From a virus, in the IMG/VR virus record IMGVR_UViG_3300036760_001538, positions 1-64,000 of that record: a stretch of DNA of 64,000 bases. One strand, written 5' to 3'. The translations under genes were made by a program, and so were the position numbers. Below, piece after piece: positions 14,173 through 64,000 of the stretch. How positions within the stretch are numbered: the stretch's first letter is position 1; each line of letters begins with the position of its first letter. A model generated the notes under the pieces. The model did not search any database. It was not told where the DNA came from and worked only from the letters and a program-made list of their open reading frames with translations.

Positions 14173-14208
14173 CCCCGCTTCCGTATCTCTGCGCCCACCC
14201 CGACCTGC

Positions 14209-14450: not shown

Positions 14451-14462
14451 TTCTTCGGTTAC

Positions 14463-14493
14463 CGACACTTCGCGCGTTCCTCCGGTAAGTAAC
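14463..14493 (+). promoter_or_regulatory. Phage promoter-like element, copy 2
   Basis: CGACACTT at 14463-14470 and CTCCGGTAAGTAAC at 14480-14493, same spacing as copies 1 and 3. It precedes the TTG-initiated gene at 14525 and sits at the edge of the iteron array. Confidence 0.7.
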
Positions 14494-14524
14494 CTCTGGA
14501 ACCCGATTATCGGAGGATTACCCC

Positions 14525-21381: not shown

Positions 21382-23090
21382 GCCATTGCGTGGATGTGCT
21401 GCGGGAAATGGAGGCAGAGAGCGTCCAGTGTGTTGTCACGTCCCCGCCCTATTGGGGAAAACGCTGCTATGACGGGGAGCAGGAAACGGCCTGGGGAGGC
21501 GGTACCGCCTGCGAACACGATTGGGTCTCTCGCCGCTACTACACCGAACGGTCCGCCGGAAAGAGCGGCAAGGAGGCCTTCGCGGAGGCCGGGGAGGCGA
21601 ATAGCGAACGGCTCAAGGCAGCACGCTGGCGACAAGACGCGGTTTGCACCAGGTGCAGAGCCTGGCTGGGGGCCTACGGGCTGGAGCCGACCATCGACCT
21701 ATACGTGCAGCATACCGCTGAGATCCTGCAGGCGATCCGGCGCGTGCTCCGGCCCGACGGAGTCGTTTGGTGGAATCTGGGAGATTCCCGGGCGGGAAGC
21801 GGCGGCGCACACACCGAGCACCACCGGAACCCCGGGATCTCCAAATCGTGGAAACGCCGCGGCGTCCCCCATTGGGGAGCGCTCGGTCAGCCAGGTAACT
21901 ACCTCGCGCCGAAGGGCCTCAAGCCCAAAGACTTGTGCTTGATTCCTTTCCGCGTCGCGTTGGCGGCACAGGGGTTTGCCGTGGTCTCCGGCGCCGAGAT
22001 CCTCAAGGCGGCCGATCTCCTGGGCGAGGCGCGCCGAGTCGGAGACTGGAGTCTGGTGGAGATGGTGGAGAACCTGCTACGGCAATGGGCGCTGTTGTGT
22101 CTCGTCGCTCCGGAGACGCAGTGGGTCAGGTCGGTGATCGTCTGGGACAAGCCCAACCCCTTACCGGAATCGACGAATGATAGGGCGACCGATGCCCACG
22201 AGTACATTCTCCTGCTGGCGAAGAACGAGCGCTATTTCTATGACGCTGACGCCGTGCGGGAACCGAACCATCCCGACGGCCGGCGGGTAACCCGCGTCGT
22301 CGGCGGCAACGGAAGCATTCAGCATCGGGACGGCGAAAGGTGGCCCAATCCCTCCGGTCGCAATCTCCGGAGCGTCTGGACTTTCCCGACGCGCGGCTAT
22401 CCCGGTGCCCACTTTGCGGTCTTTCCTCCCGAGCTACCGAGACGCTGCATCCTGGCCGGCACGCCTCCCAAGGTCTGCGCAACCTGTGCAACTCCCTGGC
22501 GGCGTCAGACGCGGCGGGAAGTTGATAATACGGGGTACCCGGGCGGACCCGGCGGCAACTACGCGTCGAAAGGCCGGCCGCCGGGCGGGCAAGAGCATGC
22601 GGACTCAAGTACGCTCGGCAAGGTTGCACGCTACCGGGTGACTACGCTCGGCTGGCAGCCAACCTGCAGCTGTCATGGGGAGCCATCGACCAAGACGGCT
22701 GACTGCGAAGCCTGCCAGGGAACGGGTATTGAGCAGGCCTATCCCGGCGAAGGGCCGAACACCGCCGACCGCAACAAGGAGCCGTATGCCGGCAACAACC
22801 CCCATCTCCTGCGGCTGGAGAAGCAGCCGACGGGCAAACTGTGTCCAGAATGCGGCGGGACGGGCAAGACAACTGTCGAGGTATGGAGTCAGGAAGCGCT
22901 TGAACGCTGGGCGACACGTCCGGCCATTGTGCTCGACCCTTTCGCAGGTAGCGGCACCACGCTGATGGTCGCCGAGGAACTCGGCCGATGGTGGATCGGC
23001 ATAGACATCTGCGAAGACTACCTGCCGCAGATCCGAAAGCGCACCGCCCAACGGTCGCTGGCTGGAGCCTTTGAGAATGCGACGCACTGA
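21363..23090 (+). CDS. DNA methyltransferase, N4-cytosine or N6-adenine type
   Basis: 575 residues. Catalytic motif IV TSPPYWG occurs near the N terminus (about residue 28), while SAM-binding motif I DPFAGSGTT is near the C terminus (about 525), the order of beta-class enzymes; the SPPY form leans to N4-cytosine. Central conserved segments (VIVWDKPNPLPES, EYILLLAKNERYFYD, WTFPTRGYPGAHFAVFPPEL) are typical of phage and type II methyltransferases. Several CxxC pairs between about 370 and 510 (CATCATPW, CEACQGTG, CPECGGTG) form inserted zinc ribbons. It probably modifies phage DNA to avoid host restriction. No cognate nuclease is adjacent. Confidence 0.9.
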   Translation: MREVRIGHCVDVLREMEAESVQCVVTSPPYWGKRCYDGEQETAWGGGTACEHDWVSRRYYTERSAGKSGKEAFAEAGEANSERLKAARWRQDAVCTRCRAWLGAYGLEPTIDLYVQHTAEILQAIRRVLRPDGVVWWNLGDSRAGSGGAHTEHHRNPGISKSWKRRGVPHWGALGQPGNYLAPKGLKPKDLCLIPFRVALAAQGFAVVSGAEILKAADLLGEARRVGDWSLVEMVENLLRQWALLCLVAPETQWVRSVIVWDKPNPLPESTNDRATDAHEYILLLAKNERYFYDADAVREPNHPDGRRVTRVVGGNGSIQHRDGERWPNPSGRNLRSVWTFPTRGYPGAHFAVFPPELPRRCILAGTPPKVCATCATPWRRQTRREVDNTGYPGGPGGNYASKGRPPGGQEHADSSTLGKVARYRVTTLGWQPTCSCHGEPSTKTADCEACQGTGIEQAYPGEGPNTADRNKEPYAGNNPHLLRLEKQPTGKLCPECGGTGKTTVEVWSQEALERWATRPAIVLDPFAGSGTTLMVAEELGRWWIGIDICEDYLPQIRKRTAQRSLAGAFENATH

Positions 23091-23103
23091 GGTTGGCCCG
23101 GCA

Positions 23104-23412
23104 ATGACTCGGAGGGAGTTCAAGCGCGCTCTGGCTGCGCAGCTCGAGTCCGTCGAAGGTCTGGTGAATCGGCGGAACGCGGCCTACGCCGGCGCCGATG
23201 CTCTCAAGTGCTGGCGGAAGCGGGGCCTCGCCGGCCTGCTGGTACGGCTGGAGGACAAGCTCGCCAGGTTCGACACCTTCATGGAGCGGGGCGGGGTGAC
23301 GGAAGCAGAGTGGCGGGAGTTGCTGAGCGATATCGCCGGCTACGCCCTGTGCGGGCTGGTGTGGCTGGCGCATGGTAGCGATCCCAGCATCGGAGACGGA
23401 CGCGATGAATAG
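23104..23412 (+). CDS. DUF1599-like nucleotide-modification domain protein
   Basis: 102 residues from ATG 23104; in-frame ATG 23077 and TTG 23071 inside the methyltransferase are alternatives. The pattern NRRNAAYAGADAL, then GLAGLLVRLEDKLARFDTF and WRELLSDIAGYALCGLVWL resembles the DUF1599 / nucleotide modification-associated family, often encoded near phage DNA-modification genes. Position after a methyltransferase agrees. Biochemical activity is not established. Confidence 0.6.
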   Translation: MTRREFKRALAAQLESVEGLVNRRNAAYAGADALKCWRKRGLAGLLVRLEDKLARFDTFMERGGVTEAEWRELLSDIAGYALCGLVWLAHGSDPSIGDGRDE

Positions 23413-23614
23413 CCGCCGCGGTCAGAAGACCGACTGCGCACGCTGCCGATACCGGGGGCCGAGGGTGCATGTGAACGGAGCAGTCTATGCGACCTGTCTG
23501 CGCCACCGCATGGATGGCGAGGCGCATGCGCTGCCGCAGGAGTGGCTGGAGGCGATGGAATCCGAGAAAGTGCGCTGCGATCTGTTCCAACCTGCGCTGC
23601 GGAGGGCGGCCTGA
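23405..23614 (+). CDS. Small cysteine-rich protein
   Basis: 69 residues, ATG 23405 overlapping the previous stop. Cysteines at CARC, TCLRH and RCDLF could bind a metal ion. No family recognised. The next gene's ATG overlaps its stop (TGATG), so it is translated as part of the modification operon. Confidence 0.6.
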   Translation: MNSRRGQKTDCARCRYRGPRVHVNGAVYATCLRHRMDGEAHALPQEWLEAMESEKVRCDLFQPALRRAA

Positions 23615-24651
23615 TGCCCTGGCGTGGGTTCGAGGCCCTGCCACCCTATTTCGGCGGGAAGAGGCGGCTCTGCCCGCGCATCTTCCGGGAGATAACGCGG
23701 GTGCATCCGCGCGAGACATGGCCGTCGCTGCGTCTGGTTGACCCGTTCCTGGGCGGCGGGAGCGTCAGCCTCTATGCCAAGGCGCAGGGCTTCGGCGTGC
23801 TGTGCGGCGACCTGGCAGAGCGGAGCGTGATCATCGGGAAGGCGCTGGTTGAGAATGACGGCGTGAGACTGGACGAGCAAGACCTGCTGCGGCTGTTCGT
23901 GCCAGCCGAAGGCAACGGACACGTGATCGAGCGGAACTATGTGCCCGACTGCTTCGCGCTCACCTCGGCGCAGTTCCTGGACAACGCCTTCGCCGTGGTG
24001 GAGCAGGTCGAAGACGCGACGAAGAGGTCGCTGCTGCGCCTGCTGCTGATCAAGTACATCTACTGGCTGCGGCCGCACTCGAAGTTCTCGTCTCCGGGGG
24101 CCTTCAACCGGCCCTTCGCTGAAGGCCGCTACGACGACATCAAGGCGACCTACAAGCACGCCATCGCCGCCAACGCGAGCCACCCGCTGCTGGCAGTGCG
24201 GGCGCTGGCAAAGGATATCAACCGGGCGATAGCGCGTGGCTCACAGCCGTGCCAGACGATGAAGGGCGATGCGCTGGAGACCATCCGCGCCGGCGAGGGG
24301 GCAGAGGTGCTCTACCTGGACCCGCCTTACAGCGGCACGCTTTCCTATGAGGAAGAGTATCGCATCCTAGACGAGATACTGGGAGAGCGCCATCAGCCGA
24401 GCGCGTTCTCCGAGCGCGACGGGCTGAACCACTTCGCTTCGTTGCTGGAGCAGTGTGGAGCCTACCCGCTCTGGGTGATCTCCTACGGGAACGCGGTGGC
24501 CGACCTCGGTGCGGTGCGGGGGGCGGTCGAGCGGTTCCGCCCGACGCAGGCAGTGGAGATCGCCTACTCCCACATGAACGCGGTGGCCACCCAGGCAAAG
24601 CGGGAGGCGAACCGCGAGTTCATCATACTCGCTGGAGAGATGCTGAGATGA
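23614..24651 (+). CDS. Dam-type DNA adenine methyltransferase
   Basis: 345 residues. Alpha-class order: PPYFGGKRRL near residue 10 (motif X region), VDPFLGGGSVS near 46 (motif I, SAM binding), then YLDPPYSGT near 235 (catalytic DPPY). This is the D12-class N6-adenine methyltransferase layout, longer than E. coli Dam owing to a central target-recognition region. It is the second of three methyltransferases and probably marks phage DNA. GGAGGG precedes the ATG and the gene ends in ATGA with the next. Confidence 0.92.
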   Translation: MPWRGFEALPPYFGGKRRLCPRIFREITRVHPRETWPSLRLVDPFLGGGSVSLYAKAQGFGVLCGDLAERSVIIGKALVENDGVRLDEQDLLRLFVPAEGNGHVIERNYVPDCFALTSAQFLDNAFAVVEQVEDATKRSLLRLLLIKYIYWLRPHSKFSSPGAFNRPFAEGRYDDIKATYKHAIAANASHPLLAVRALAKDINRAIARGSQPCQTMKGDALETIRAGEGAEVLYLDPPYSGTLSYEEEYRILDEILGERHQPSAFSERDGLNHFASLLEQCGAYPLWVISYGNAVADLGAVRGAVERFRPTQAVEIAYSHMNAVATQAKREANREFIILAGEMLR

Positions 24652-24992
24652 AGGTCTACGTGGCAGGCCCCTACACCCCACAAGACGGACGCGATGAGTC
24701 GCGCCTGGAGAACATTCGACGCGCGAGCCTGGCTGCGCAGCGGCTACTCAAAGCCGGCCATACGCCCTTTTGCCCGCACACCATGACGGCGGGCTGGGAG
24801 GAGAGCTGCGGTTATGAGGACTTCCTACGGCTGGGCATGGCGTGGCTGGCAACCTGCGACGCCATCCTGCTGCTGCCAGGCTGGGAGCAGAGCAAAGGCG
24901 CGCGGCGGGAGTATGAGGAGGCTGTGACGTTGGGTCTGTTGATCACAGACGACCTGGAGAGTCTGGTTTCCGGAGGTGTGGACCATGTCTGA
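24648..24992 (+). CDS. DUF4406 / nucleoside deoxyribosyltransferase-like
   Basis: 114 residues beginning MKVYVAGPYT, then NIRRASLAAQRLLKAGHTPFCPH, LRLGMAWLATCDAILLLPGWEQSKGARREYEEA. This is the conserved DUF4406/Nuc_deoxyrib_tr Rossmann-like fold, with the GPYT loop and the SKGAxxE signature. Members hydrolyse or transfer N-glycosidic bonds of nucleotides or are uncharacterised. In phages they may adjust nucleotide pools. ATGA overlap with the upstream methyltransferase. Confidence 0.8.
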   Translation: MKVYVAGPYTPQDGRDESRLENIRRASLAAQRLLKAGHTPFCPHTMTAGWEESCGYEDFLRLGMAWLATCDAILLLPGWEQSKGARREYEEAVTLGLLITDDLESLVSGGVDHV

Positions 24993-25674
24993 GATGATCC
25001 CGCGAGAGCGCATTCGACCGAATGACTGGAACGCCAACGCCTTCGATCCGGCCAACTACCCAAAGTTGGTAGAGAGCATTCGCGATAAGGGCATCATGGA
25101 GCCGCTCAAGGTCATGCCCGATCCTGAGCGCGAAGGCGACCCTTCGACCGGCTCAGGGCAAGGCTTCTTGCTGGTGGACGGCTACCATCGCTGGAAGGCG
25201 GCCGGCGACCTCGGCCTCGAAGAGCTGCCCTGCGAGGTGTGGGACATCTCGCCCGAGGAGGCGAAGGTGCGGGGCCTCCAGCTCAACTACCTGCGGGGTC
25301 AGCCAATACCAGTCCGGCTCGCCAACCTGGTGCATGATCTGAACCGCACCTACTCTGTAGACGATCTGGCGAGCATGCTGCCCTGGTCGGAGAGCCAACT
25401 GCGTGATTCGTTGGAGTTGCTGAAGCTTCCGGCCGACCTGCAGGGCAAGCTGGAGGAACAGGCCATGCGGGAGGCTGCCGAAGCGCCAGTTCCGGTGACG
25501 GTGGTGCTGTTGGGCAAGGAGCATGACTATTTCCAACGAGCGATGCAGCAGGCGAAACAGCGACTGGGCAAAGGCGCACGACGCGGAGAGTGCCTGGCCA
25601 CAATCTGCAGTCATTTCATAAGCGGGCACATGCCCTCCGAAGAAACCGCAGAAACGGAGACAGCGGATGAGTGA
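24985..25674 (+). CDS. ParB-like nuclease domain protein
   Basis: 229 residues, ATG 24985 after GGAGGT. N-terminal ParB/sulfiredoxin-like domain: PRERIRPNDWNANAFDP, LVESIRDKGIMEPLKV, FLLVDGYHRWKAAGDLG. The expected GxxR core is VDGYHR. A helical DNA-binding half follows (VHDLNRTYSVDDLASMLPWSESQLRDSLELLKL). Within the ParB core an in-frame REP-like repeat inserts PSTGSGQG before FLLVDG. Next to a ParB-methyltransferase fusion it may act in DNA packaging, partition-like or modification functions; it resembles phage ParB-like proteins upstream of terminase. Confidence 0.85.
   Translation: MSEMIPRERIRPNDWNANAFDPANYPKLVESIRDKGIMEPLKVMPDPEREGDPSTGSGQGFLLVDGYHRWKAAGDLGLEELPCEVWDISPEEAKVRGLQLNYLRGQPIPVRLANLVHDLNRTYSVDDLASMLPWSESQLRDSLELLKLPADLQGKLEEQAMREAAEAPVPVTVVLLGKEHDYFQRAMQQAKQRLGKGARRGECLATICSHFISGHMPSEETAETETADE
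25141..25164 (+). repeat. REP-like short repeat, copy 3, inserted in a ParB gene
   Basis: CTTCGACCGGCTCAGGGCA followed by AGGC, translated as PSTGSGQ within the ParB core. Related to copies at 7737 and 8221. It adds residues between the usual strand leading to FLLVDG. Confidence 0.6.
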
Positions 25675-27031
25675 GCCATTGGCGTCCCCCTCGGCCGCGC
25701 TCGGGGTAAACGTAAGCACTGAGTATGAGATAGAACTCTGGCCTATCGCGCGCCTGCAGGCTAATCCGCGCAACTACCGCTCCCACCCGCCGGAGCAGAT
25801 ACAGGTGCTGCGAGCGAGTCTGCTGCGCCACGGCCAGCAAAAGCCCATCGTGGTGACACCGGAAGGCGTCATCCTGGCGGGGCATGGGGTGCTCGTGGCC
25901 GCAAAGGCTGCTGGCTGGCTCGAAGTGGCCGTCAAGGTCTATACCAGCAGCAATCCGGGAGCCTACCTGCTCGATGACAACGAGACGGTACGTCTCGCGG
26001 TGGACGACGAGCAGATCCTGGCCCGCCTTCTGCAGGAGCGCCAGCAGGCAGGCACGCTGGATTCCACCGGCTGGGATGAAGATTCGCTGCGTGAGCTTCT
26101 CTCCCGTCTGGAGACCGGACAGGAATCCGGGCTGATCGACCCGGGCCCGGGTGAACCGCCAGCCGAGCCCTTCACCCGGAGTGGAGACATCTGGGAGCTG
26201 GGCGAGCACCGGCTGATCTGCGGGGATGCCCGCGATCCGGACACGTTGGAGTTACTTCTGGAAGGCAGCAAAGCCCAACTGGCTATCACCTCGCCTCCCT
26301 ACGGCGTCGGCAAGGAGTACGAGGAGAAAGGCATTACGCCCTGGTTTGAGACCGTCAAGCCGGTGATCGAGAACCTGGGCCGGTGTGCCGAGATCGTCTG
26401 CTGGCAGATGGTGGACTTGTATGCGACCGGCACCCAGTTCATCGAGCCCACGCTCGCCTATTCCATCCAACTCTTCATGCAGGCGGGGATGCGGCCCATC
26501 TGGATTCGTATCTGGGAGAAGCAGGGCTTGAACTTCGGAGTGGGACCCTATCACCTCGTCTCCAACAAACCGGCGCAGCAGTACGAGTATGTGGCGACGT
26601 TTGCAGAGGAGAATGCAGCTCTCGAAATGCCCGAAGAGCGGCCCTATGCCTTCGTCACGGCTTTCGCCCAGGCGCAGCATCGCTTTGTGCAACGGCTGAC
26701 CCAGGTGGAGCGCAAGGCCTGGGGATATGCGGGCGTCTGGAAGATCAACACGGTGCACGCCAACGATCTGCATCCGGCAATGTTCCCCGTCGAGCTGCCG
26801 GAACGCTGCTTGAAGATGCACTCGGACGTGGGCGGGCTGATCCTGGAGCCGTTCTGCGGCGCGGGCACGACGCTCATCGCGGCCGAACGGCTGGGACGGC
26901 GTTGCCGCGCGGTGGAACTGCAGCCGGCCTACTGCGATGTCACCATCGTGCGCTGGCAACAGATGACGGGCAAGGAGGCGATCCGCGCGGGCGACGGGGC
27001 GCGGTTTCCCAGGCGTGCGGAGGCGGGATAA
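25667..27031 (+). CDS. ParB-DNA methyltransferase fusion
   Basis: 454 residues. N-terminal ParB-like domain (ELWPIARLQANPRNYRSHPPEQI, LRHGQQKPIVVTPEGVILAGHGVLVAAKAAG, about residues 20-90) linked to a methyltransferase with DIWELGEHRLICGDA, motif IV TSPPYG near 207 and motif I LEPFCGAGTT near 392. This ParB-Mtase fusion is common in phages just upstream of terminase. Modification is probably N6-adenine or N4-cytosine. It starts eight bases before the ParB-like gene ends. Confidence 0.9.
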   Translation: MSEPLASPSAALGVNVSTEYEIELWPIARLQANPRNYRSHPPEQIQVLRASLLRHGQQKPIVVTPEGVILAGHGVLVAAKAAGWLEVAVKVYTSSNPGAYLLDDNETVRLAVDDEQILARLLQERQQAGTLDSTGWDEDSLRELLSRLETGQESGLIDPGPGEPPAEPFTRSGDIWELGEHRLICGDARDPDTLELLLEGSKAQLAITSPPYGVGKEYEEKGITPWFETVKPVIENLGRCAEIVCWQMVDLYATGTQFIEPTLAYSIQLFMQAGMRPIWIRIWEKQGLNFGVGPYHLVSNKPAQQYEYVATFAEENAALEMPEERPYAFVTAFAQAQHRFVQRLTQVERKAWGYAGVWKINTVHANDLHPAMFPVELPERCLKMHSDVGGLILEPFCGAGTTLIAAERLGRRCRAVELQPAYCDVTIVRWQQMTGKEAIRAGDGARFPRRAEAG

Positions 27032-29518: not shown

Positions 29519-30646
29519 ATGTTCACCGTTACGGTGGAGCAAGCCATGCCAGCGATCAAAGAGCGAGACCTGACAGCAGAGACCGCGCAGCGCCTTCGTG
29601 AGGTGCTGGAGGGAGTGCCATTCGTGGATGTATTGCGGATCGAGCAGCAGGTCCCCATCGCGCCCGGGCGCGTGTCCGACCTGGTGGTGGAGATTCAGAC
29701 GCCCGTCGGAGCGCGCCGGCTCCTGGTGGAGGTGAAGACAGAGGGTCTTCCGAGGACCCTGCGTAATGCAGGAGAGCAGCTCAAGGCTTATGTCGCGAGT
29801 GTGCCAGATGCCTACGGGGTGGTGGCTGCTCCCTACATCAGCGACCGGGGCCGGGCTCTCTGCCAGCAGTTCGGGGTCGGCTGTCTCGATCTGGCTGGGA
29901 ATGTTCTGCTCGCCTTTGACCAAGTGTTCATTGAGAAGACCGGATACCCCAATCCCTCGCCCGTGCGGAAACTTCGGAGGGCGCTGTTCTCACCGCGGTC
30001 CACGCGGGTCTTGCGTGTCCTACTCGCCGACCCTACGCGGCGGTGGTACGTCCGCGACCTGGCGGCCGAAGCGCGGATCAGTCTTGCGCAGACGTCCAAC
30101 TTGAAGCGGGCGCTGCTCGAACAAGAGCTGCTGGGCGAAGAGCGCCGCCGCTTCTGGCTGGCGAAACCTGAAGACCTCCTTCGCGATTGGGCGCAGGCCT
30201 ACACCTACGAAGTGAACGACGTGCGGTCTTTGTACTCGATGCTCCGCATTCCAGAAGTGGAAGAGCGCCTTGCCGCGGAGTGTGAACGGAGAGGCATGCG
30301 CTACGGCTTGGCCCTGTTTTCGGGTGCAAGCCGGGTCGCGCCGTTCGCTCGCTATGACCGCGCCTTTGCATTCGTTGATGAGAGACCCGAGGAGATTGCA
30401 GCGGCATTGGAGTTGAAGCCAGTCCCCACGGGGGCCAACGTGTTCCTGCTCCGCCCCTACGATGAGGGCGTCTTCTACGGGCTCCAGGAGGTCGGGGGAG
30501 CGAAGGTCGTGTCGGACATCCAACTTTACCTCGACTTGAGGAGCTACAAGGGCCGTGGCGAAGAGGCCGCAGACTTCCTCTACGAAAGGCGCATCAAGCC
30601 GCGATGGAACCCAGAACCCGATCAGACTACACAGCCAGAGCAGTAG
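29519..30646 (+). CDS. abiEi: AbiEi-like antitoxin / transcriptional repressor
   Basis: 375 residues from ATG 29519; ATG 29546 with GGTGGAG upstream is a strong alternative. N-terminal PD-(D/E)XK-like fold (SDLVVEIQTP, RRLLVEVKTEG, LKAYVASVPDAYGVVAAPYIS, residues about 40-125), then a winged HTH (STRVLRVLLADPTRRWYVRDLAAEARISLAQTSNL, about 160-200). This is the layout of type IV antitoxins of the AbiEi group. It overlaps by 43 bases a nucleotidyltransferase gene, the usual antitoxin-toxin order. Should neutralise the toxin and repress the operon. Confidence 0.78.
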   Translation: MFTVTVEQAMPAIKERDLTAETAQRLREVLEGVPFVDVLRIEQQVPIAPGRVSDLVVEIQTPVGARRLLVEVKTEGLPRTLRNAGEQLKAYVASVPDAYGVVAAPYISDRGRALCQQFGVGCLDLAGNVLLAFDQVFIEKTGYPNPSPVRKLRRALFSPRSTRVLRVLLADPTRRWYVRDLAAEARISLAQTSNLKRALLEQELLGEERRRFWLAKPEDLLRDWAQAYTYEVNDVRSLYSMLRIPEVEERLAAECERRGMRYGLALFSGASRVAPFARYDRAFAFVDERPEEIAAALELKPVPTGANVFLLRPYDEGVFYGLQEVGGAKVVSDIQLYLDLRSYKGRGEEAADFLYERRIKPRWNPEPDQTTQPEQ

Positions 30647-31461
30647 ACGCGGCCTTCTCGGTGCTCATCGAGTTGTTCGGCATGCTCGGCGAGTTCCGCG
30701 AACACATCGCGGTCATCGGCGGCTGGGTGCCGCACCTGATCCTCCGCGATGCAGACACGGAGCCAGCGGGCACCTTGGATGTTGATCTGGCGATAGACTT
30801 TGCGCACATCTCAGACGATACCTACAGCACGTTCCTCAAGGCGCTTGAGACGCGCGGCTACCGACAAGACCACGAGCAGCCCTTCCGATTCTTCAAGGCG
30901 GTCACCATCGGAGATGGCCCGCCGGTCGAGGTCGAAGTTGATCTCCTGGCCGGAGAGTACGGGGGGACCGGGAAGGGGCGTCGCACGCAAGTCGTCCAGG
31001 ATGTCCGAGCCCGCAAAGCACGTGGGGCTGACTTGGTCTTCGACCACTGCGTCCAGGTTCGCGTCGAGGGACGGCTGCCGAACGGTGCGCTTGACACGGT
31101 GACCGTGAAGGTCGCAGACGTGGTGGCCTTCCTCGTGATGAAGGGAATGGCTCTTCATGACCGGCGCAAGGAGAAGGATTGCTACGACATCTTCTACTGC
31201 GTCGCCAACTACCCAGGAGGTGTTGCTGCCTTGGTAGAGGCCTTCCGGCCTCATATCGACAAGCGGCTGGTGGCTGAAGGCTTGTCGAAGATACGGAGCA
31301 AGTTCCTCTCACCTGAGCATTTCGGGCCGGTCGCGGTCGCTGAGTTTCTTGAGATCGCCGATCCGGAGGAGCGTGCCATCGTGACTCGCGATGCCTATGA
31401 GCGCCTGAATGCGCTCCTGGAGCAACTGCAAGTCAGGCTCTGGGAGGATTCCCCGGCGTAA
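30604..31461 (+). CDS. abiEii: AbiEii-like nucleotidyltransferase toxin
   Basis: 285 residues. The nucleotidyltransferase signature is visible as VIGGWVPHLIL (GG motif) followed by TLDVDLAID (paired aspartates), with a third acidic strand in PPVEVEVDLLAGEYG. A helical C-terminal half contains a KEKDCYDIFYCVANYP segment typical of AbiEii-family proteins. These enzymes transfer nucleotides, for example to tRNA, and block growth of infected cells. Paired with the AbiEi-like gene, so probably a phage-carried type IV toxin-antitoxin/abortive infection module. Confidence 0.8.
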   Translation: MEPRTRSDYTARAVDAAFSVLIELFGMLGEFREHIAVIGGWVPHLILRDADTEPAGTLDVDLAIDFAHISDDTYSTFLKALETRGYRQDHEQPFRFFKAVTIGDGPPVEVEVDLLAGEYGGTGKGRRTQVVQDVRARKARGADLVFDHCVQVRVEGRLPNGALDTVTVKVADVVAFLVMKGMALHDRRKEKDCYDIFYCVANYPGGVAALVEAFRPHIDKRLVAEGLSKIRSKFLSPEHFGPVAVAEFLEIADPEERAIVTRDAYERLNALLEQLQVRLWEDSPA

Positions 31462-55614: not shown

Positions 55615-55737
55615 CTGCCTCACCCCCTCAGAAACCACTCACTTCGGCCTTGACTTCCTTGGCGAACAGCGTGATTCATGTGTCGCCCGGACGGAACGGG
55701 CCTCAGAAAGGACCACGGGTTCTGGCGAATTGCAGGC

Positions 55738-56745
55738 ATGACTCACATGAGCGGCGAGGAGCCGCCAGAAAGTAGGGACGGCAAGAAGATGGGTCAGAAG
55801 CAGATAGCAAGCAGCAAAGCGGAAGCTTACCGATTCGGTTGTGAGATAGAGTGCTTCCTGCCCGATCAGGCGATCAGGGATCTCCGCATCAGCATCGGCG
55901 CCTATCACCACGGTCACCCGCTGCCCTCGCCCTTCCCGCAGGGCTGGACAGCGGAGGGTGATGGCAGCCTGCGCACCGACCGCCGCGGTTACGTGCCCGT
56001 CGAGATTGTGAGCCCGATACTCCAGGGGCGTGCCGGAATCGAGCAGGTCAAGCAGGTGGCGCAGACGCTCAAGGGCCTGGGGGCAGTCGTGAATACCACA
56101 GCGGGGCTTCACGTGCACTGCTCAGCGGAGGCCGTCGCCGGCGAGAGCTTCACTAAGGTCGCCGAGTGGGTGGCCAAGCTCCTCTACCACGTGGCGATGC
56201 ACGAGACGGCGCTCTATGCCTCCACCGGAACCCACCGCCGAGAGAACGGCGGCTATGCCCGCAGCATCAAGGCGCAGAAGAACGCCGCCGATAGGGTGCG
56301 CCGCGCTCCCGATACTCGCAAGCGGGAAGCGCTCCAGGATGCAGTCTACGGACTGGCTCGCTATCACACGCTCAACCTCACCAACCTCTTCACTCGCAAG
56401 GCCACCGTCGAGTTCCGCCACGGTGCCGGGACGGTCGAGTGGACGAAGATGGTGGCCCACATCCAGATGGCGCTCGCCCTCTGCGAGCGGGCCACCGAGA
56501 CCGCGAAGATGGACTGGGACGCCCTCGCCAGCGAGCGCACCTACCACGTAAGGGGCAAGGGCCTGCGGGAACTCAACCGGTTCTTCTACCTGGCGGGCTG
56601 GACGCTGGGCCGGCGGGATGTGGGCAAGCCGCAGGTGGAGATGGCCGGCTGGATTGCTGACCTGGCTGACCTGAAGCCGGTGAAACGGGAATTGAAGCGG
56701 CTCGCGCGCCGGTATGATTCTGCGGCGACGGAAAGGGCGGCCTGA
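55738..56745 (+). CDS. Amidoligase-like enzyme
   Basis: 335 residues from ATG 55738; ATG 55678, 55747 and 55789 are alternatives and no ribosome binding site decides. Glutamine-synthetase-like amidoligase pattern: FGCEIECFLP, AEGDGSL, VPVEIVSPIL, NTTAGLHVHCSAEAV and TVEFRHGAGTVEW hold the conserved acidic and histidine residues. These enzymes form amide bonds with ATP, and phage members are predicted to modify peptides or cell-wall components. The next gene is an amidotransferase that could supply ammonia, a known neighbourhood type. Confidence 0.85.
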   Translation: MTHMSGEEPPESRDGKKMGQKQIASSKAEAYRFGCEIECFLPDQAIRDLRISIGAYHHGHPLPSPFPQGWTAEGDGSLRTDRRGYVPVEIVSPILQGRAGIEQVKQVAQTLKGLGAVVNTTAGLHVHCSAEAVAGESFTKVAEWVAKLLYHVAMHETALYASTGTHRRENGGYARSIKAQKNAADRVRRAPDTRKREALQDAVYGLARYHTLNLTNLFTRKATVEFRHGAGTVEWTKMVAHIQMALALCERATETAKMDWDALASERTYHVRGKGLRELNRFFYLAGWTLGRRDVGKPQVEMAGWIADLADLKPVKRELKRLARRYDSAATERAA

Positions 56746-56746
56746 G

Positions 56747-57472
56747 ATGTGCGGGGTCTTCGGATTCGCAGGCACCCTGAGCCGCCGCGAGTGGGCGCTC
56801 GCCCATCGCCTGATGGTGGAACTCGCGATTGCCTCCGAGGAGCGCGGGACAGACGCGGCCGGCTTCGCCGCTCTCACCGCCAGCGGCGAGCTCCTCTGGC
56901 AGCGGCAGCCAGGGCCGGCGCGGCTGCTCTTCCGGGGCAAAGAGTTCGCTGCGCTCCGGCGCAGGAGCGTGGTCGTGGCCATCGGCCACACGCGGCTCGC
57001 CACTACGGGAGCGCCCGCAGTCAACGGGAATAACCACCCTCATCTGGCAGGTGACTTCCGCGGGGGGCGGGCGTGGGCGGTCGTGCACAACGGATTCATC
57101 CCGCTACACGACCGCAAGGCGGCCGCGCTCGGCATTCGCCTCAAGTCCCAGTGCGACTCGGAGATTCTCGCGCAAGTCCTCGACCGCTACGGCGAGGCGG
57201 AAGGGCCGGACGTGTGCTTGGCCCTCGGTGGCAAGCAGTCCGTACTCGCCATCAACGGCACTGCCCACGCGATGCTTGCCTGGACGAACGGGGAGATGCC
57301 CCTGGTCGCCTTTCGCGTCGAGGATATGCCCGCTGTCTGGTGGGCGTCCACGGAGGAGATAGCGGAGAAAGCGCTGTGCGAGGCGGGGCTGCTGGCGAGC
57401 TTCGCACGGGTCGAGCCGGGCGTGGTCTATCGCCTGGAAGCCACGACCGACCTGGCATGGGAGGGGCTGTGA
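56747..57472 (+). CDS. Class II glutamine amidotransferase
   Basis: 241 residues. Starts MCGVFGF: Cys2 is the N-terminal nucleophile after Met removal. GHTRLATTG, VVHNGFI and SQCDSEIL are the glutamine-binding motifs of the Ntn amidotransferase domain. No partner synthase domain is fused, so it may deliver ammonia to the amidoligase just upstream (one base apart) or act as a standalone glutaminase. Confidence 0.9.
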   Translation: MCGVFGFAGTLSRREWALAHRLMVELAIASEERGTDAAGFAALTASGELLWQRQPGPARLLFRGKEFAALRRRSVVVAIGHTRLATTGAPAVNGNNHPHLAGDFRGGRAWAVVHNGFIPLHDRKAAALGIRLKSQCDSEILAQVLDRYGEAEGPDVCLALGGKQSVLAINGTAHAMLAWTNGEMPLVAFRVEDMPAVWWASTEEIAEKALCEAGLLASFARVEPGVVYRLEATTDLAWEGL

Positions 57473-58152
57473 TGCGGGAGTTTCTGTATCACGGGACAAC
57501 GGAGGGCGCGGTGAAGGCGATTCTGCAGGACGGAATCATGCCGCGCCGCGGCGAGCGGCCAAGCACATGGGGCACCGTGCCGTCGGCCCCTGACCGAGTA
57601 TACCTGGCCGAGGGATACGCACCCTATTTCGCGGCCGCAGCCGCGGCGGAAGGCGAGCGGCACGCGCTGGTAGAGGTGAGGCTGGCTGCCCTGGACGAGC
57701 GCCTGCTGCGACCCGATGAAGACTTCATCGCCCAGGTGCTCAAACGACAGGAACCGGGTTGCCGCGAGATGTCCTGGGCTGACCTCAACCGCCTGGTGTT
57801 GTCGCTTGGGCGATGGGACGGGCTTTGGAAGGAGTCCCTGCAAGCCCTGGGAACCTGCGCCTACGCCGAGACGATTCCGACCGAGGCCATCAGCCGTGTC
57901 GCCCTTTATGACCCGGCTGACAACCCCCAGATGGCGATGGCGGCGCTGGACCCGGCGATCTCCGTGCTCAACTGGCAGCTATGCGCCGAGAAATACCGGC
58001 TCCTCACACGTTGGCACATGGGCGACGAGTTGACCTTGGATGAGTGGCTGGAGGTGGAACCGGGCTTGAGGTCTCTTCTCGGGGAGGAGCACGTGTCGCA
58101 GATTGCTGCCGCGCTGAGGCGCCAGAGGATTGAGGTGAGGTGGAACCGATGA
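57472..58152 (+). CDS. ADP-ribosyltransferase-fold protein
   Basis: 226 residues, ATG overlapping the previous stop codon. LYHGTTEGAVKAILQDGIMPRRG, then DRVYLAEGYAPYFAAAAAAEGE and ALVEVRLAALDERLL match the ART fold shared by Tpt1/KptA RNA 2'-phosphotransferases and toxin ARTs (His of HGT, Tyr of VYL). The C-terminal half is helical and unassigned. It may use NAD to modify a host or phage target. Exact activity cannot be told. Confidence 0.72.
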   Translation: MREFLYHGTTEGAVKAILQDGIMPRRGERPSTWGTVPSAPDRVYLAEGYAPYFAAAAAAEGERHALVEVRLAALDERLLRPDEDFIAQVLKRQEPGCREMSWADLNRLVLSLGRWDGLWKESLQALGTCAYAETIPTEAISRVALYDPADNPQMAMAALDPAISVLNWQLCAEKYRLLTRWHMGDELTLDEWLEVEPGLRSLLGEEHVSQIAAALRRQRIEVRWNR

Positions 58153-59049: not shown

Positions 59050-59104
59050 ACTGTGAAAAACTGTGATGGATCTGCGATATCGGTAATTAACTGAAATTAA
59101 CTGA
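59050..59104. promoter_or_regulatory. Direct repeats upstream of the island promoter
   Basis: ACTGTGA occurs at 59050 and 59060 (10-base period) and AATTAACTGA occurs twice in direct tandem at 59085-59094 and 59095-59104. Helically phased repeats before a strong promoter suggest a regulator-binding region or an AT-rich UP element. Confidence 0.55.
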
Positions 59105-59111
59105 TCTACTC

Positions 59112-59140
59112 TTGACAAAACTGTGCTTCTCTAGGATAAT
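59112..59140 (+). promoter_or_regulatory. Strong sigma70 promoter of the island operon
   Basis: TTGACA (59112-59117) and GATAAT (59135-59140) with a 17-base spacer, 25 bases before the GTG of the HTH gene. The surroundings are much more AT-rich than the phage genes. Confidence 0.85.
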
Positions 59141-59165
59141 ACGCCAAATACTGGAGAACACTATC

Positions 59166-59456
59166 GTGAACTTGGCCTCTGCAATGGGCAATGGGCCTGA
59201 GCTGCTGACCGTTAAGGAGGCAGCTGATCTGCTGCGAATGAACCCGAGCTACTTGGCGAGTCGGCTCGCGGCTGGCGAATATCCAGTAGAGGTAGCGTTT
59301 CGAGTGGGCCGTACTTGGCGGGTGGATCGCGCTCGCCTGCTAGAGTGGTTCCAGAACCGAGAGCAGCTCAGGCGACGCGCCGGCAGTAGGAAGGCTACAG
59401 CTGCGGCTCCTTCTCTTGCCAATATGGCGAACGGCAAGCGTAGGAGGCGGGCATGA
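59166..59456 (+). CDS. Excisionase/MerR-type HTH protein
   Basis: 96 residues from GTG 59166, with TGGAGA nine bases upstream; codons further up precede the transcription start. LLTVKEAADLLRMNPSYLASRLAAGEYPVEVAFRVGRTWRVDRARLLEWF is the HTH_17/excisionase pattern (given in parts: VKEAADLLRMN, RTWRVDRARLLEWF). Basic tail. ATGA overlap with the radical SAM gene shows it leads the operon; probably its regulator. Confidence 0.82.
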   Translation: MNLASAMGNGPELLTVKEAADLLRMNPSYLASRLAAGEYPVEVAFRVGRTWRVDRARLLEWFQNREQLRRRAGSRKATAAAPSLANMANGKRRRRA

Positions 59457-61051
59457 GGGTCCTTCTTGTTGAGCCTGAGTATCGGCGGTTGTCTGCCTCG
59501 AAAAAGCGACTTGCTTCGGAGCCCTGCGTTGCGCCTTCCGTAGATGCGCGTGAGTCGCGAGACGACGAAACCCTCTGGTACCCCCCTTTGGGTCTGATGA
59601 AGCTCTCCCGATTCCACAAGGACCGCGGCGATGAAGTGCGCTTCGCGAGCGGCTGCGATCCGAGCATCGCCGTACAGCAGACTCTTCTCTCTCCGCCGGC
59701 GTTGTGGGACAGAGTCTACATCACCACCCTCTTCACTTACGACTTCGCTAAGATCGTGGAAACCATCAAGTTCTACAAGAACGCCGTAGGAGGAACCTCT
59801 CATCGGGTTTACGTCGGTGGCATCATGGCATCACTCATGCCGGACGCCGTGTATGAGGAGACCGGCATCTATCCCATCACCGGAGTATTGCATTCGCCCG
59901 CGCCTCTCGGTCTAGATGACGACGTTGACATCGACGCGTTGCCGCCGGACTACGACATCGTCGACCCCCGCCTATATGCCGTCAATGACACTTATTACGG
60001 CTACACATCGCGAGGGTGCGTTAACACGTGTCCCTGGTGCGGAGTGCCGAAGGTCGAACCTGAGTTCGTTCCCTATATTGATATCAAGCCGGTCATCTGG
60101 GCGCTGCGAGCTCGGTACGGCGACAAGGCCAAGCTCAAGCTGATGGACAACAACGTACTGGCCTCACCGGCACTAGAGCAGATCGTGGCCGACCTTCTGA
60201 AACTCGGCTATGGCAAGGAGCAGTACACGGACACCGAATCCAAGAGGGCTAGGGTCATCGATTTCAACCAGGGCTTGGACGCCACGTTCATCACCGAAGA
60301 GCGGATCAGGCTCTTGGCACAACTGAACATCAAGCCGGTACGGATAGCGTTCGACCGGGTCAGGGAGAAAGCGACTTATATGCGCGCGGTGGAGCTTGCA
60401 CAGAAGTGCGGCTTCACGCAGTTCTCGAACTACATGCTCTACAACTTCGATGACTCCCCACGGGATCTATATGAGCGGCTCCTCGTTAACATCGGCATCA
60501 ACAGGCAGTGGTTGGGTGAGGACGGTAACCGAGCAGGCGAGATCTATAGCTACCCAATGCGATATGCCCCGATAGATGAAACAAACGGCTCTAAGACAAG
60601 GGAGCGCCGCGATCATGTCCCTGCGGTGATGACAGAATCACGAGACTGGTTGCAGAACCCTGCGTGGACAAGGCGGTTCATTCGGAATGTCGCGATCATG
60701 ACGGGTGCTGCGCACGGTGCCATTTCCCCGACCCCAAGCCTCGCACTCCGCACCATTGGTGAGTCATTCGAGGAATTCGTGGCGAATCTCTACATGCCAG
60801 AGGAGCTTCTGCGGAACAGGAACAAGCACGAGCGCCGGCTCTATGAACATGAGCCAACTCGTGAGCCAGGCACTGGGCTGGTAGAGGGATTTCGTCAGTT
60901 CATCCTGCGCCTACTAGCCAAGCAAGGCGACGTTTTTCGTGCCTTCCATGAGGCGGTGTCGGAAAACCGCGCTGAGGCCGTAAAGCGCTATCGGAACGAA
61001 TGCACGGACGAAGAGACTCGGAAATGGCTAGATCTGTACCTGAAGAGATAG
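59453..61051 (+). CDS. B12-domain-like radical SAM protein
   Basis: 532 residues. N-terminal VLLVEPEYRR, then LWYPPLGLMKLSRFHKDRGDEVRFASG and a Rossmann-like region (VYVGGIMASLMPDAV) resemble B12-binding radical SAM enzymes. Residues 183-197 GYTSRGCVNTCPWCG carry CxxxCxxC (Cys189, 193, 196) for the 4Fe-4S cluster. KLMDNNVLAS, DFNQGLDATFITEERIRLLAQLNIKPVRIAFD (in parts) follow as the TIM-barrel strands. The last 100 residues are helical. It may modify nucleic acid or another target; no close family function known. It overlaps the GHKL gene. Confidence 0.85.
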   Translation: MRVLLVEPEYRRLSASKKRLASEPCVAPSVDARESRDDETLWYPPLGLMKLSRFHKDRGDEVRFASGCDPSIAVQQTLLSPPALWDRVYITTLFTYDFAKIVETIKFYKNAVGGTSHRVYVGGIMASLMPDAVYEETGIYPITGVLHSPAPLGLDDDVDIDALPPDYDIVDPRLYAVNDTYYGYTSRGCVNTCPWCGVPKVEPEFVPYIDIKPVIWALRARYGDKAKLKLMDNNVLASPALEQIVADLLKLGYGKEQYTDTESKRARVIDFNQGLDATFITEERIRLLAQLNIKPVRIAFDRVREKATYMRAVELAQKCGFTQFSNYMLYNFDDSPRDLYERLLVNIGINRQWLGEDGNRAGEIYSYPMRYAPIDETNGSKTRERRDHVPAVMTESRDWLQNPAWTRRFIRNVAIMTGAAHGAISPTPSLALRTIGESFEEFVANLYMPEELLRNRNKHERRLYEHEPTREPGTGLVEGFRQFILRLLAKQGDVFRAFHEAVSENRAEAVKRYRNECTDEETRKWLDLYLKR

Positions 61052-62583
61052 GAAAACCGATTCCGGTTCGGGGGACCCTTGGAGCCCAGCTCCTGGAGGT
61101 AGTCACTGCCGGGATGTATAGTGACCCCAGGATGATTCTCAGGGAGTACATTCAGAACGCGGTGGATTCGCTTGACCTAGCAGAGGAGAAGGGTGTGATT
61201 GGGTCGACCGAGGGGATTGTCGACATTCGCCTGGAGGGGCAAGCGAGGACAATCACGATCGAGGACAACGGCCTCGGAGTCCCCCTCGATGAGCTGTCCG
61301 AAAGGCTGGGCAGCCTTGGGCGCAGCGAGAAGGAGGGTATGAGGTGCAGAGGCTTTCGAGGGATCGGGCGACTCGGCGGCCTGGCCTACTGCGATGAGAT
61401 CAGATTCGAGACCAGAGCGGACCGTGATCGGAAGATTGGTATTGTAACCTGGGACGGTGTGGCTACCAGGGAGTTGATTCGGGAGACTCGAGGCAGGGGC
61501 AGGCTCGCCGACATAGTGCAGCGTGTCGCCAGCACATATGCTCGAAGGCCGTCCTCCGCTGATCCGTCGCGCTTCTTCCGCGTCACGCTTTCGAAGGTGC
61601 GGCCTTTTCATAGTGACGATTTGATGAACCTACACCGAGTGCGGGACTATCTCTCGCAGGTCGCACCTGTCCCGTTCGACCGAGAGCGATTCCGGTTTGC
61701 GGACGCGATAGACGAGCGGCTTAACGACCTTCCTGGGTATCGCAGCTATGAGATCCGCGTCAATGACCGCCGGATATGCCGACCATATAGCGATCAAATC
61801 CCGGTGAACGATGCGCGCACTGAGCGAATCCAGGCGGTTGAGCAAATGGATTTTGAGGGAGCCGATGGAAGGCTGATGGGTCGCGGCTGGTACGCGATCA
61901 CCGATCTCTGCGCTGCCTTCCCCCCTAGTCTGATCGCGCGCGGTATCCGAATGCGGCAAGGCAACATAGGAGTCGGTGAGGAGTCCTTCCTGGAGCACTG
62001 CTTCACCGAGCGGCGCTTCGCCGCCTGGCACATCGGCGAGATACACGTGGACACAGGCATCCGGCCAAACGCCCGGCGCGACGGTTTTGAGCACTCGGCG
62101 GATTACGAGCGGTTCCTGGAACAGGCGCGAGTATTGGGGACTCACCTGAGTGCCCTATGCAGACGTTCATCCAAGAACAGAAGCATGGTCCGAACCGTGG
62201 GCGCACGACTCCTTGAACTCGAGCGGCAGGTCAGCGCAATGTTGTTCCCTAACCAGACACACTTGGAGTCGTTTCTGACCGGCTTCGACCGGTGCCTGCT
62301 CGACCTAGAGACGCGCATGGGAACGCTTGATGTAGACCATGGCTTGCGCGACCGTCTGCGCAGATTGAGGCGCAGGGCGGACGACATCCGTCGATGCCCA
62401 AGATACCTGTCGGACTCGCTCGACCGCCGCAAGCTCCGTCAGCTAGAGCCGGCCGAACTGCTGAAGCGGATCAGCGAGTCCATTTTGGCCGATCCGGCCA
62501 ACGGCCTTGCATCCAAAGAGCTGCTGAGGACCATACTGGACCCGTATCTGAAGCCGTCTCTCCGAAGGCGGCTCCGTCACTAG
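61024..62583 (+). CDS. Hsp90-like GHKL ATPase
   Basis: 519 residues from ATG 61024, overlapping the radical SAM gene by 28 bases. Bergerat fold motifs: LREYIQNAVDS (N box, Asn45), ITIEDNGLGV (residues 77-86), LGSLGRSEK and RGFRGIGRLGGLAYCDE (G2 region, about 109-125). Later regions are helical and unassigned. This resembles Hsp90/MORC-type ATPases seen in prokaryotic defence islands. Its stop is 14 bases from the ParB-like gene stop on the other strand. Confidence 0.85.
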   Translation: MARSVPEEIGKPIPVRGTLGAQLLEVVTAGMYSDPRMILREYIQNAVDSLDLAEEKGVIGSTEGIVDIRLEGQARTITIEDNGLGVPLDELSERLGSLGRSEKEGMRCRGFRGIGRLGGLAYCDEIRFETRADRDRKIGIVTWDGVATRELIRETRGRGRLADIVQRVASTYARRPSSADPSRFFRVTLSKVRPFHSDDLMNLHRVRDYLSQVAPVPFDRERFRFADAIDERLNDLPGYRSYEIRVNDRRICRPYSDQIPVNDARTERIQAVEQMDFEGADGRLMGRGWYAITDLCAAFPPSLIARGIRMRQGNIGVGEESFLEHCFTERRFAAWHIGEIHVDTGIRPNARRDGFEHSADYERFLEQARVLGTHLSALCRRSSKNRSMVRTVGARLLELERQVSAMLFPNQTHLESFLTGFDRCLLDLETRMGTLDVDHGLRDRLRRLRRRADDIRRCPRYLSDSLDRRKLRQLEPAELLKRISESILADPANGLASKELLRTILDPYLKPSLRRRLRH

Positions 62584-62597
62584 GCGACCGCTGGCAT

Positions 62598-63590
62598 CTA
62601 CGCGAATCTGGAGAGGAGCTTAGCTACGGCATCCCTGATCTTCTTCAACTCATAGATGCACTTCTTCAGATGATCCTCACTCATCTCGTGAAAGTCGTCT
62701 CTCGTGTCCGGGTCACATATGTGATCGCGGAATTTCTTCAGTCTCTTCACCCATTCGTTCGTCGCTCCGCGACTTACCGCCCGCTCGTAGCACCTCTCGA
62801 GACTCCCCTTTGTTCCGATGAAGGTCGCGAGGGTCTTGCCCCCTGCACGACAGATGGCCGTGACCTTTTCCCGAACGTCGACTGCTCGGGGTATCTCACC
62901 TGACTTTATCTTCTGGACGATCACCTTATCGAACGTTGGCTCTGTCCTCCGCGCCCTCCTGATGTACTGGGACTTCAGGAGTTCGTCGTAGTAGCTCCAT
63001 CTCGAGACGTCATTGTCGCCATGTTCCCTCATGTAGGAATAGACCATAATCAGGTGCGACACGAGCTTGGCTGAGAGGCCCATCTCCGATGCGATTCTCG
63101 ATGCATCAACGCCATGAACCTTACAGCGGCGCCACAGGTAACCGGCCTGTTCGTACGGAGCCCAGTCTTTGCGACCGATTATGTGATACTCGCCCAGTAG
63201 GGCGAACACAACGTCGTCGCTCACGTCGGAGGGCAGGAGCTTCACCTTGATCTTGCCCCACTTGATCGGGTCCCCTTTAGCCAGCACCCGATAGGCTGCT
63301 AGTCGGCTGTTCCCTTCGAGCACGACGAAGTCGCCATCCCTGACCAGGACCGGGTCGGTTAGGCCACCGTTAGCCTTGATTGACTGGACCAACGCCTTTA
63401 CATGGTCCACCGAGCTCAAACGCCGCTCGATCTCAGCCTGTGATGCCTCCTCCTCTCCGTTGAGTATGGAGTAGACTCTCGGGTTTTCAGTGTAGAATTG
63501 CAGTTGGGTCTGGCGCATGTGCCCGCACCGGACTACAATCTCCTGGTTTGCTATCGTAAGCGAATCCTCAATCCATTGGACTCTTTCCAT
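62598..63590 (-). CDS. ParB-like nuclease domain protein, island
   Basis: 330 residues, start ATG 63590 on the minus strand (GTG 63593 directly before it also in frame). ParB/sulfiredoxin fold: RLSSVDHVKALVQSIKANGGLTDPVLVRDGDFVVLEGNSRLAAYRVL (in parts: LVRDGDFVVLEGNSRLAAY, with the GNxR core). A helical half follows (DASRIASEMGLSAKLVSHL) with an HTH-like stretch, and a C-terminal helical domain. It precedes the SNF2 helicase stop by only three bases, so they share an operon; it faces the GHKL gene. Confidence 0.82.
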   Translation of the reverse strand: MERVQWIEDSLTIANQEIVVRCGHMRQTQLQFYTENPRVYSILNGEEEASQAEIERRLSSVDHVKALVQSIKANGGLTDPVLVRDGDFVVLEGNSRLAAYRVLAKGDPIKWGKIKVKLLPSDVSDDVVFALLGEYHIIGRKDWAPYEQAGYLWRRCKVHGVDASRIASEMGLSAKLVSHLIMVYSYMREHGDNDVSRWSYYDELLKSQYIRRARRTEPTFDKVIVQKIKSGEIPRAVDVREKVTAICRAGGKTLATFIGTKGSLERCYERAVSRGATNEWVKRLKKFRDHICDPDTRDDFHEMSEDHLKKCIYELKKIRDAVAKLLSRFA

Positions 63591-63596
63591 CACGGC

Positions 63597-64000
63597 TCAT
63601 TCCCCTTGTTCAATGTTCAGAATCTCCCGGAGAACATGGCCGAAGTCATAGGACATCTGGCTCTGATAGTACTCCAGCGAAATGTCCCCTTGTGCCAATT
63701 GCGCCGCTAGCTGCTTGCTGTGAAGCAGAACGTCGACCCACTCGTCTATGGAGTCCTGCATAATTAGGTTGGTGACATAGCAGGTCTTGCTCTGCGATAT
63801 CCTGTGTATCCTGTCCTGGGCCTGCAAGTAGTCGTCCAGGCCGAAAGTCCGGTCGTAAAAGATCACGTGGTTGGCGACGGTAAGCGTGAGCCCCTCTCTT
63901 GCGGCGCCAGGCGTGGCAACGAGAACTCGACAGGCGGGTTCGGAGGTAAACCTATCGATGGCCCGATTCCTGGTCTGCAGTGCCAGCTTGCCGTGAACCC
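63597..64000 (-). CDS. SNF2-family helicase, C-terminal end (partial)
   Basis: Only the end of the gene is in the window; the start lies beyond 64000. The visible frame contains RVLVATPGAAREGLTLTVANHVIFYD (in parts: VATPGAAREGLTLTVANHV), the SNF2 motif V region, then AQDRIHRISQ, motif VI. This is a Swi2/Snf2 ATPase translocase. SNF2 proteins partner with ParB-like or methylase genes in many defence and modification systems. Confidence 0.9.
   Translation of the reverse strand, partial: VHGKLALQTRNRAIDRFTSEPACRVLVATPGAAREGLTLTVANHVIFYDRTFGLDDYLQAQDRIHRISQSKTCYVTNLIMQDSIDEWVDVLLHSKQLAAQLAQGDISLEYYQSQMSYDFGHVLREILNIEQGE

Follow-up and report, generated by a model that had tools for sequence, protein, structure and literature searches.

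What do the genes at the end of a temperate-phage contig do together, where a radical S-adenosylmethionine (rSAM) enzyme and a GHKL ATPase stand opposite ParB-like genes and an SNF2 helicase? The locus belongs to the 66,555-base IMG/VR virus record IMGVR_UViG_3300036760_001538, of which bases 1-64000 form the window analysed here. An earlier note on the window had proposed that its helix-turn-helix (HTH), rSAM, GHKL, ParB-like and SNF2 genes represent one system unlike those already named, and sequence together with Pfam and PHROGs matches confirmed every one of these genes in its place. The genes almost certainly form one coherent system, a previously unnamed module of six to seven genes that is nearly unchanged across bacteria of many phyla. 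We propose that it is a mobile, two-part anti-invader system resembling modification and restriction, a reading to which we assign a probability of about 0.5.

The module is defined by a constant gene set and gene order. In the record, an HTH-rSAM-GHKL group converges with a ParB2-SNF2-nuclease-ParB1 group. The DNA beyond position 64000, which the earlier note had considered might hold an unrelated system, contains the remainder of the SNF2 gene, a small nuclease gene and ParB1, all parts of the same system. The rSAM, GHKL, ParB and SNF2 genes thus belong together as the note had supposed, but it had named neither the nuclease nor the second ParB protein, and the HTH gene, present ahead of rSAM in the window, is not constant in the module. 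Two virus contigs (L008, L012) carry six genes in the same direction, ParB1-nuclease-SNF2-ParB2-rSAM-GHKL, with 27-57% protein identity to the window module; their ParB2 orthologues occupy the same position and are 38-46% identical, and their ParB1 orthologues are 40-47% identical. With a ParB1 alignment as query, a scan of 84,980 species genomes identified 69 loci, distributed over Pseudomonadota, Nitrospirota, Chloroflexota, Bacillota, Bacteroidota, Acidobacteriota, Planctomycetota and other phyla. Neighbouring genes were labelled by iterated profiles, and locus counts refer to the 46 loci with enough flanking DNA. ParB1, nuclease, SNF2 and ParB2 follow one another in this order on one strand in 44 loci, and the co-occurrence across genomes on which the earlier proposal depended was borne out for rSAM, whose gene adjoins this core in 46/46 loci. 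On the strand of the core, rSAM lies downstream in 22 loci and upstream in 15; in the other 9 it is encoded on the opposite strand. An Hsp90-like ATPase is encoded in 31 loci and a DpdB-like DGQHR protein, located in the rSAM cassette, in 16. Since both are missing from many loci, neither is essential to every variant.

Independent searches recovered the same association. SNF2 (E <= 1e-40) and ParB1 queries in tblastn searches of 72,556 plasmid records returned the same seven records at adjacent positions, and an rSAM profile found exactly one copy, within the module, in 10/10 carrier genomes. When three taxa were searched more widely for rSAM, 11 genomes besides the centres emerged: five with the full module (including L186, which is outside the ParB1 set), two with an rSAM-GHKL pair behind NurA-HerA, two with a pair lacking a recognised partner and two with distant rSAM relatives only. 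Where the core is present, rSAM is therefore present too, whereas rSAM can occur without the core. The module as a whole is rare: none of 384 other sampled Alphaproteobacteria encoded the rSAM protein at E <= 1e-60. A single-sequence viral scan with the window rSAM, a DNA-level search of phage records and a ParB1 search of phage records gave no match; an rSAM alignment query of viral records did find matches, the weaker of which belong mostly to a broad family of phage rSAM proteins not accompanied by the module. Carriers include virus contigs, plasmids and chromosomal contigs in many phyla, with serine or tyrosine recombinases near the module in about 15 loci. Among the seven plasmid records is the complete seven-gene set of the cultured strain Rhizobium leguminosarum bv. 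trifolii WSM1325 (RLEG_RS34150 to RLEG_RS34120), and on R. leguminosarum plasmid pR132505 the DGQHR gene lies directly ahead of rSAM.

The rSAM and GHKL proteins combine a possibly cobalamin-dependent radical enzyme with an Hsp90-like ATPase. The CX3CX2C motif that the earlier note had located at residues 189-196 of the rSAM protein consists of C189, C193 and C196, the predicted 4Fe-4S ligands, which are invariant in 33/33 aligned sequences. The PF04055 match (7.6e-6) falls slightly under the Pfam cut-off. In an AlphaFold2 model with a mean predicted local distance difference test score (pLDDT) of 88.7, a B12-binding-like Rossmann domain at the N terminus precedes a helical-tailed radical SAM barrel that holds the motif, the arrangement that defines the superfamily. 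Matches to rSAM-enzyme folds reach E 1.6e-10, and the closest solved folds are MgmA, AprD4 and MiaB, neighbours that include C-methylating, dehydrating and methylthiolating enzymes. The B12-binding-like domain is weakly matched by the Pfam B12-binding profile (E 0.025), and the corresponding domain of the model is nearest those of MgmA and AprD4. For the GHKL protein (pLDDT 90.1), Foldseek placed Hsp90 and TRAP1 at the top, with E-values down to 4e-17 and 420-500 aligned columns at a TM-score of about 0.45, in agreement with the Hsp90-like assignment made beforehand. The protein also matches HtpG by sequence, joins a Bergerat GHKL ATPase domain to an Hsp90 middle domain as HtpG does, and retains E49, N53 and D89 in all of 38 sequences. 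A MutL/MORC-like reading was ruled out by the Hsp90-like fold.

Among the core proteins, the SNF2 protein contains SNF2-rel_dom (3.1e-26) and Helicase_C (1.9e-18) domains; its top solved relative is SsoRad54 (1z63, 5e-53) and, among defence models, it is nearest ZorD (1.5e-46) and DpdE (2.1e-34). Profile searches with the 135 amino acid nuclease gave no match and its assignment as PD-(D/E)XK-type comes from the motif only, of which D51, E66-A-K68 and Q81 are invariant in 41/41 orthologues. ParB1 and ParB2 match the ParB_N, SbnI, Noc and TIGR00180 profiles, in each case weakly, and the EGN[ST]R motif of the ParB/Srx superfamily is invariant or nearly so in the ParB alignments. The DGQHR protein scores 132 bits against TIGR03187 (cut-off 58.85) and 59 bits against the DpdB model, below that model's cut-off of 300; its presence in the cassette bears out the link to dpd that the earlier note had drawn from ParB-like and SNF2 members.

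Two types of rSAM protein divide the 46 loci. Those with a DNN motif (36 loci) are accompanied by the Hsp90-like ATPase in 31, whereas none of the 10 loci with a DDN motif encodes it; the DDN-type proteins form a distant branch of the rSAM tree. Several DDN-type loci contain a protein of 222-227 amino acids after ParB2 (L042 at 13882-14556, L051, L057, L062 and L069, with longer forms in L043, L047 and L066), which may replace the Hsp90-like ATPase there; the L066 gene after ParB2 retains C-x3-C-x2-C and RQG motifs. A distinct GHKL ATPase and a PIN-like-domain protein adjoin the module in L166 (18823-22339) and also in L168, L023, L029 and L074. L168, a plasmid of Bradyrhizobium sp. 187, is divergent, with three ParB2-like genes ahead of a distant SNF2 gene (34%), convergent with GHKL-rSAM-DGQHR.

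The rSAM-Hsp90 pair also occurs with other DNA-processing machines. The pair directly follows NurA-like and HerA-like genes in five virus and bacterial loci, and NurA-HerA loci with the same rSAM family are L094, L101, L110, L189 and L193; in Marinitoga camini virus 1, an rSAM gene is found with homologous genes annotated as HerA and a NurA-type exonuclease. In IMGVR_UViG_2619619281_000003 (L009/L010), the pair stands after DrmA, DrmB and a NERD-helicase. Two distinct Hsp90-like GHKL genes lie in this DISARM-like DrmA-DrmB island, and rSAM is paired with one of them. In an rSAM tree, built by a quick method and with long branches flagged, the DrmA-DrmB case is nested with the ParB-SNF2 cases at 95-100% support and the NurA-HerA cases appear in two places. 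The recognised partners are all either nuclease-associated DNA translocases or defence helicases. Because it also joins NurA-HerA and DrmA-DrmB, the pair looks like a portable cassette; the earlier grouping of rSAM and ATPase with ParB and SNF2 thus holds as co-occurrence, but the two form a separable unit. On the simplest reading, the pair bears one function and the variable partner another. We tentatively suggest, at less than even odds, that the portable cassette makes an unknown radical-chemistry DNA mark and is plugged into at least three DNA-destroying machines (ParB-nuclease-SNF2-ParB, NurA-HerA and DrmA-DrmB), which would constitute a class of modification-based immunity.

In the two-part system that we favour, the ParB/Srx-fold pair, the SNF2 protein and the small PD-(D/E)XK-type nuclease would form the DNA-acting module, with the ParB/Srx-fold proteins as NTP-dependent DNA clamps or sensors, SNF2 as a double-strand DNA translocase and the nuclease as the cutting component. 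The enzyme of B12-rSAM architecture, the Hsp90-like ATPase and often the DpdB-like DGQHR protein would form a marking cassette, in which rSAM would chemically mark the DNA of the carrier itself and the ATPase could act as its loading or remodelling partner. The SNF2-nuclease-ParB complex would then scan DNA and cut unmarked molecules, as dpd and other modification/restriction systems do. This proposal builds on what the loci show: gene content and order are constant, active sites are intact, the two parts lie on opposite strands in some loci, the module is mobile and the cassette is exchanged between DNA machines. What we infer is that the module defends, that rSAM acts on DNA and that the mark is placed on self; a role in defence is likely, and modification of DNA by rSAM is evenly balanced. 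In dpd and Dnd, DGQHR proteins are found alongside DNA-modifying enzymes. Two features mainly lead us to prefer DNA marking: a DGQHR partner occurs within the cassette, and rSAM is constantly present and intact.

Several observations weigh against this proposal. The substrate of rSAM is not readable from its fold, and the substrates of its nearest solved relatives are protein for MgmA, an aminoglycoside precursor for AprD4 and tRNA for MiaB. The ParB/Srx assignment is weak by sequence, with top PDB E-values of 0.0037 and 0.058. Fifteen of the 46 loci lack the Hsp90-like ATPase, and the DGQHR protein is absent from most loci and was not seen in the window or in the rest of the record, which ends at ParB1. 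In addition, L188, L195 and L090 carry rSAM-Hsp90 pairs without a recognised partner. Among 107 flanking genes, matches to AbiE, AbiL, type IV and HNH restriction enzymes, PDC-S01/02/54 and resolvases were found, and these PADLOC and Pfam tallies, scattered and without an enrichment control, are not usable as proof of defence islands.

The alternative that survives best, which we nevertheless consider unlikely, is that rSAM modifies protein or RNA or makes a viperin-like small antiviral molecule, with the Hsp90-like ATPase serving as client chaperone or sensor and the SNF2-nuclease-ParB module as the DNA-degrading arm of a defence system. The protein, tRNA and small-molecule substrates of the closest rSAM structures, the Hsp90-like nature of the ATPase and its co-segregation with the DNN type of rSAM all suit such a function, but the DGQHR partner indicates DNA modification and all recognised cassette partner machines process DNA. 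We give a lower rank to a fitness module of phages and plasmids outside defence, in which rSAM would shield the element's DNA from host restriction, or ParB and SNF2 would segregate or repair it. Occurrence on phage contigs and plasmids, recombinase neighbours and the ParB folds, best known from partition, are consistent with this role; chromosomal contigs in many phyla, however, carry the module too, an intact PD-(D/E)XK-type nuclease is constant, and DrmA-DrmB, with which the cassette is also found, is a defence core. Improbable to a greater degree is modification-dependent, type IV-like restriction, in which ParB proteins or rSAM would sense or process modified phage DNA without self-marking. 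The rSAM cassette and the nuclease core are indeed separable, and type IV enzymes such as GmrSD have ParB/Srx domains (PMC12839542), but rSAM is the most constant partner and has its full catalytic residues, which suits the maker of a mark over a reader. A chance neighbourhood of unrelated genes at a prophage edge, suggested by a G+C content of 57% in the module against 65% in the phage and by the convergent orientation, is refuted by the recurrence of the gene set in dozens of loci, variously arranged and recovered from independent anchors.

The features of the module and its putative regulatory start are listed in Table 1. The rSAM ATG overlaps the HTH stop codon by 4 bases and the GHKL start likewise overlaps the rSAM end, suggesting an operon-like arrangement of the three genes. 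The stop codons of GHKL and ParB2 are separated by the 14 bases reported earlier (62584-62597). The promoter-like site is the sole one in a scan of the region, against a chance expectation of 1.5 +/- 1.2 passing sites. The first TTG of the HTH open reading frame (ORF) coincides with the -35 box, so translation probably begins at GTG 59166 or ATG 59184 rather than at TTG 59112. The HTH protein is probably a local regulator.

Table 1. Features of the module in window numbering
Feature	Position	Strand	Evidence and remarks
Candidate sigma-70-like promoter, TTGACA-17-GATAAT	59112..59140	+	Ahead of HTH-rSAM-GHKL; pattern scan, 11/12 matches
HTH_17/excisionase-type small DNA-binding protein	59166..59456 (ORF 59112-59456)	+	Pfam HTH_17, E 2.8e-8
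Radical SAM enzyme, 532 amino acids, N-terminal B12-binding-like Rossmann domain	59453..61051	+	phrog_9298, 8.8e-40
Hsp90/HtpG-like GHKL ATPase, 527 amino acids	61000..62583	+	HATPase_c_3, E 4.5e-9; start may be ATG 61024
ParB2, ParB/Srx superfamily, 331 amino acids, EGNSR motif	62598..63593	-	PHROGs ParB-like matches; TIGR00180, 1.1e-5
SNF2-family translocase, 3' part	63597..64000	-	Whole gene 63597 to about 65150 of record, 517 amino acids from TTG
PD-(D/E)XK-type nuclease, 135 amino acids	65122-65529 (beyond window)	-	D...ExK motif
ParB1, 339 amino acids	65536-66555 (beyond window)	-	Start codon at contig end; ParB_N, 0.0009

The record is a temperate-phage contig, containing portal, tape measure and recombination genes as well as integrase-type matches, with the module at its end. 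The G+C content falls from about 65% in the phage part to 57% in the last part of the window. The left end of the record encodes a large serine recombinase and a DUF2924-like protein (153-2224). Since a homologous recombinase/DUF2924-type pair (61% and 52% identical) directly adjoins the module in L008, the window module is probably cargo near an attachment site; the record, however, lacks a terminal repeat and ends inside the module, so the module may instead lie in host flank. A circular contig joining the left-end recombinase to ParB1 was rejected, the record showing no terminal repeat of at least 10 bases. Elsewhere in the window, several DNA methyltransferases are encoded at 21363-27031, one of which (25667-27031) has a ParB-type N-terminal domain. 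An overlapping gene pair at 29519-31461, AbiE-type by eye (DNA-binding protein and nucleotidyltransferase), adjoins a second dip in G+C (58% at 31-33 kb). A putative amidoligase (PF12224), a class-II glutamine amidotransferase (PF13522) and a gene without assigned function are clustered at 55678-58152, possibly as an amide-forming or peptide-tagging cassette of the phage.

Membership of the module in dpd, Dnd, BREX, DISARM, Zorya or MADS was rejected, as the defining genes of all six are absent, which upholds the earlier view of a distinct system. No PADLOC 2023 model, NCBIfam 2026 model or plasmid-locus annotation names it. Searches of 5.39 million open-access papers, without subscription journals or supplementary tables, yielded no description of the gene set, nor do passages of Dnd and BREX surveys mention it; we regard an earlier mention as rather unlikely. 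To our knowledge, no named immune system is built around a radical SAM enzyme paired with an Hsp90-like ATPase. Should the cassette prove to mark DNA, the chemistry of that nucleic-acid modification would be new, as would the way in which self is discriminated from non-self; the question is directly testable in the cultured, named strain WSM1325, which carries the complete set.

Individual components nevertheless relate the module to several known systems. Like the module, dpd contains a DGQHR protein (DpdB), an SNF2 protein (DpdE) and modification and restriction parts, but it lacks the rSAM-Hsp90 pair, and the SNF2 protein of the module is short and stands alone beside a separate PD-(D/E)XK-type nuclease; none of the module proteins matched the TGT-like transglycosylase DpdA in PADLOC or NCBIfam. 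Dnd/Ssp phosphorothioation systems similarly combine an iron-sulphur enzyme that modifies DNA with ParB/Srx and DGQHR-type proteins. Searches of the module proteins against PADLOC and NCBIfam gave no match to DndC, DndD or DndE, and DndC is not a radical SAM enzyme (PMC10853773). BREX PglZ and BrxC were not found in the module, where SNF2 gave only helicase-level BrxH matches, and the mad1-mad8 set of MADS is represented by a single mad1 match for the HTH protein (E 8e-4); a mad8 match (3e-6) concerns the HerA-like protein of another cassette context. ZorD of Zorya is the closest SNF2 protein among defence models, while the module's nuclease is a separate small protein and its proteins gave no PADLOC match to the ZorA/ZorB membrane motor. 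DISARM has an SNF2 member (DrmD) and shares the rSAM-Hsp90 cassette in the DrmA-DrmB island described above; DrmA and DrmB were not found among module proteins and were seen with the pair only in L009/L010. The HerA-NurA loci have an rSAM of the same family and mostly also the Hsp90-like ATPase, but differ in that NurA-HerA replaces ParB-nuclease-SNF2-ParB and in the gene order GHKL-rSAM. Such exchange of the effector machine represents a natural experiment on the division of labour between the two parts.

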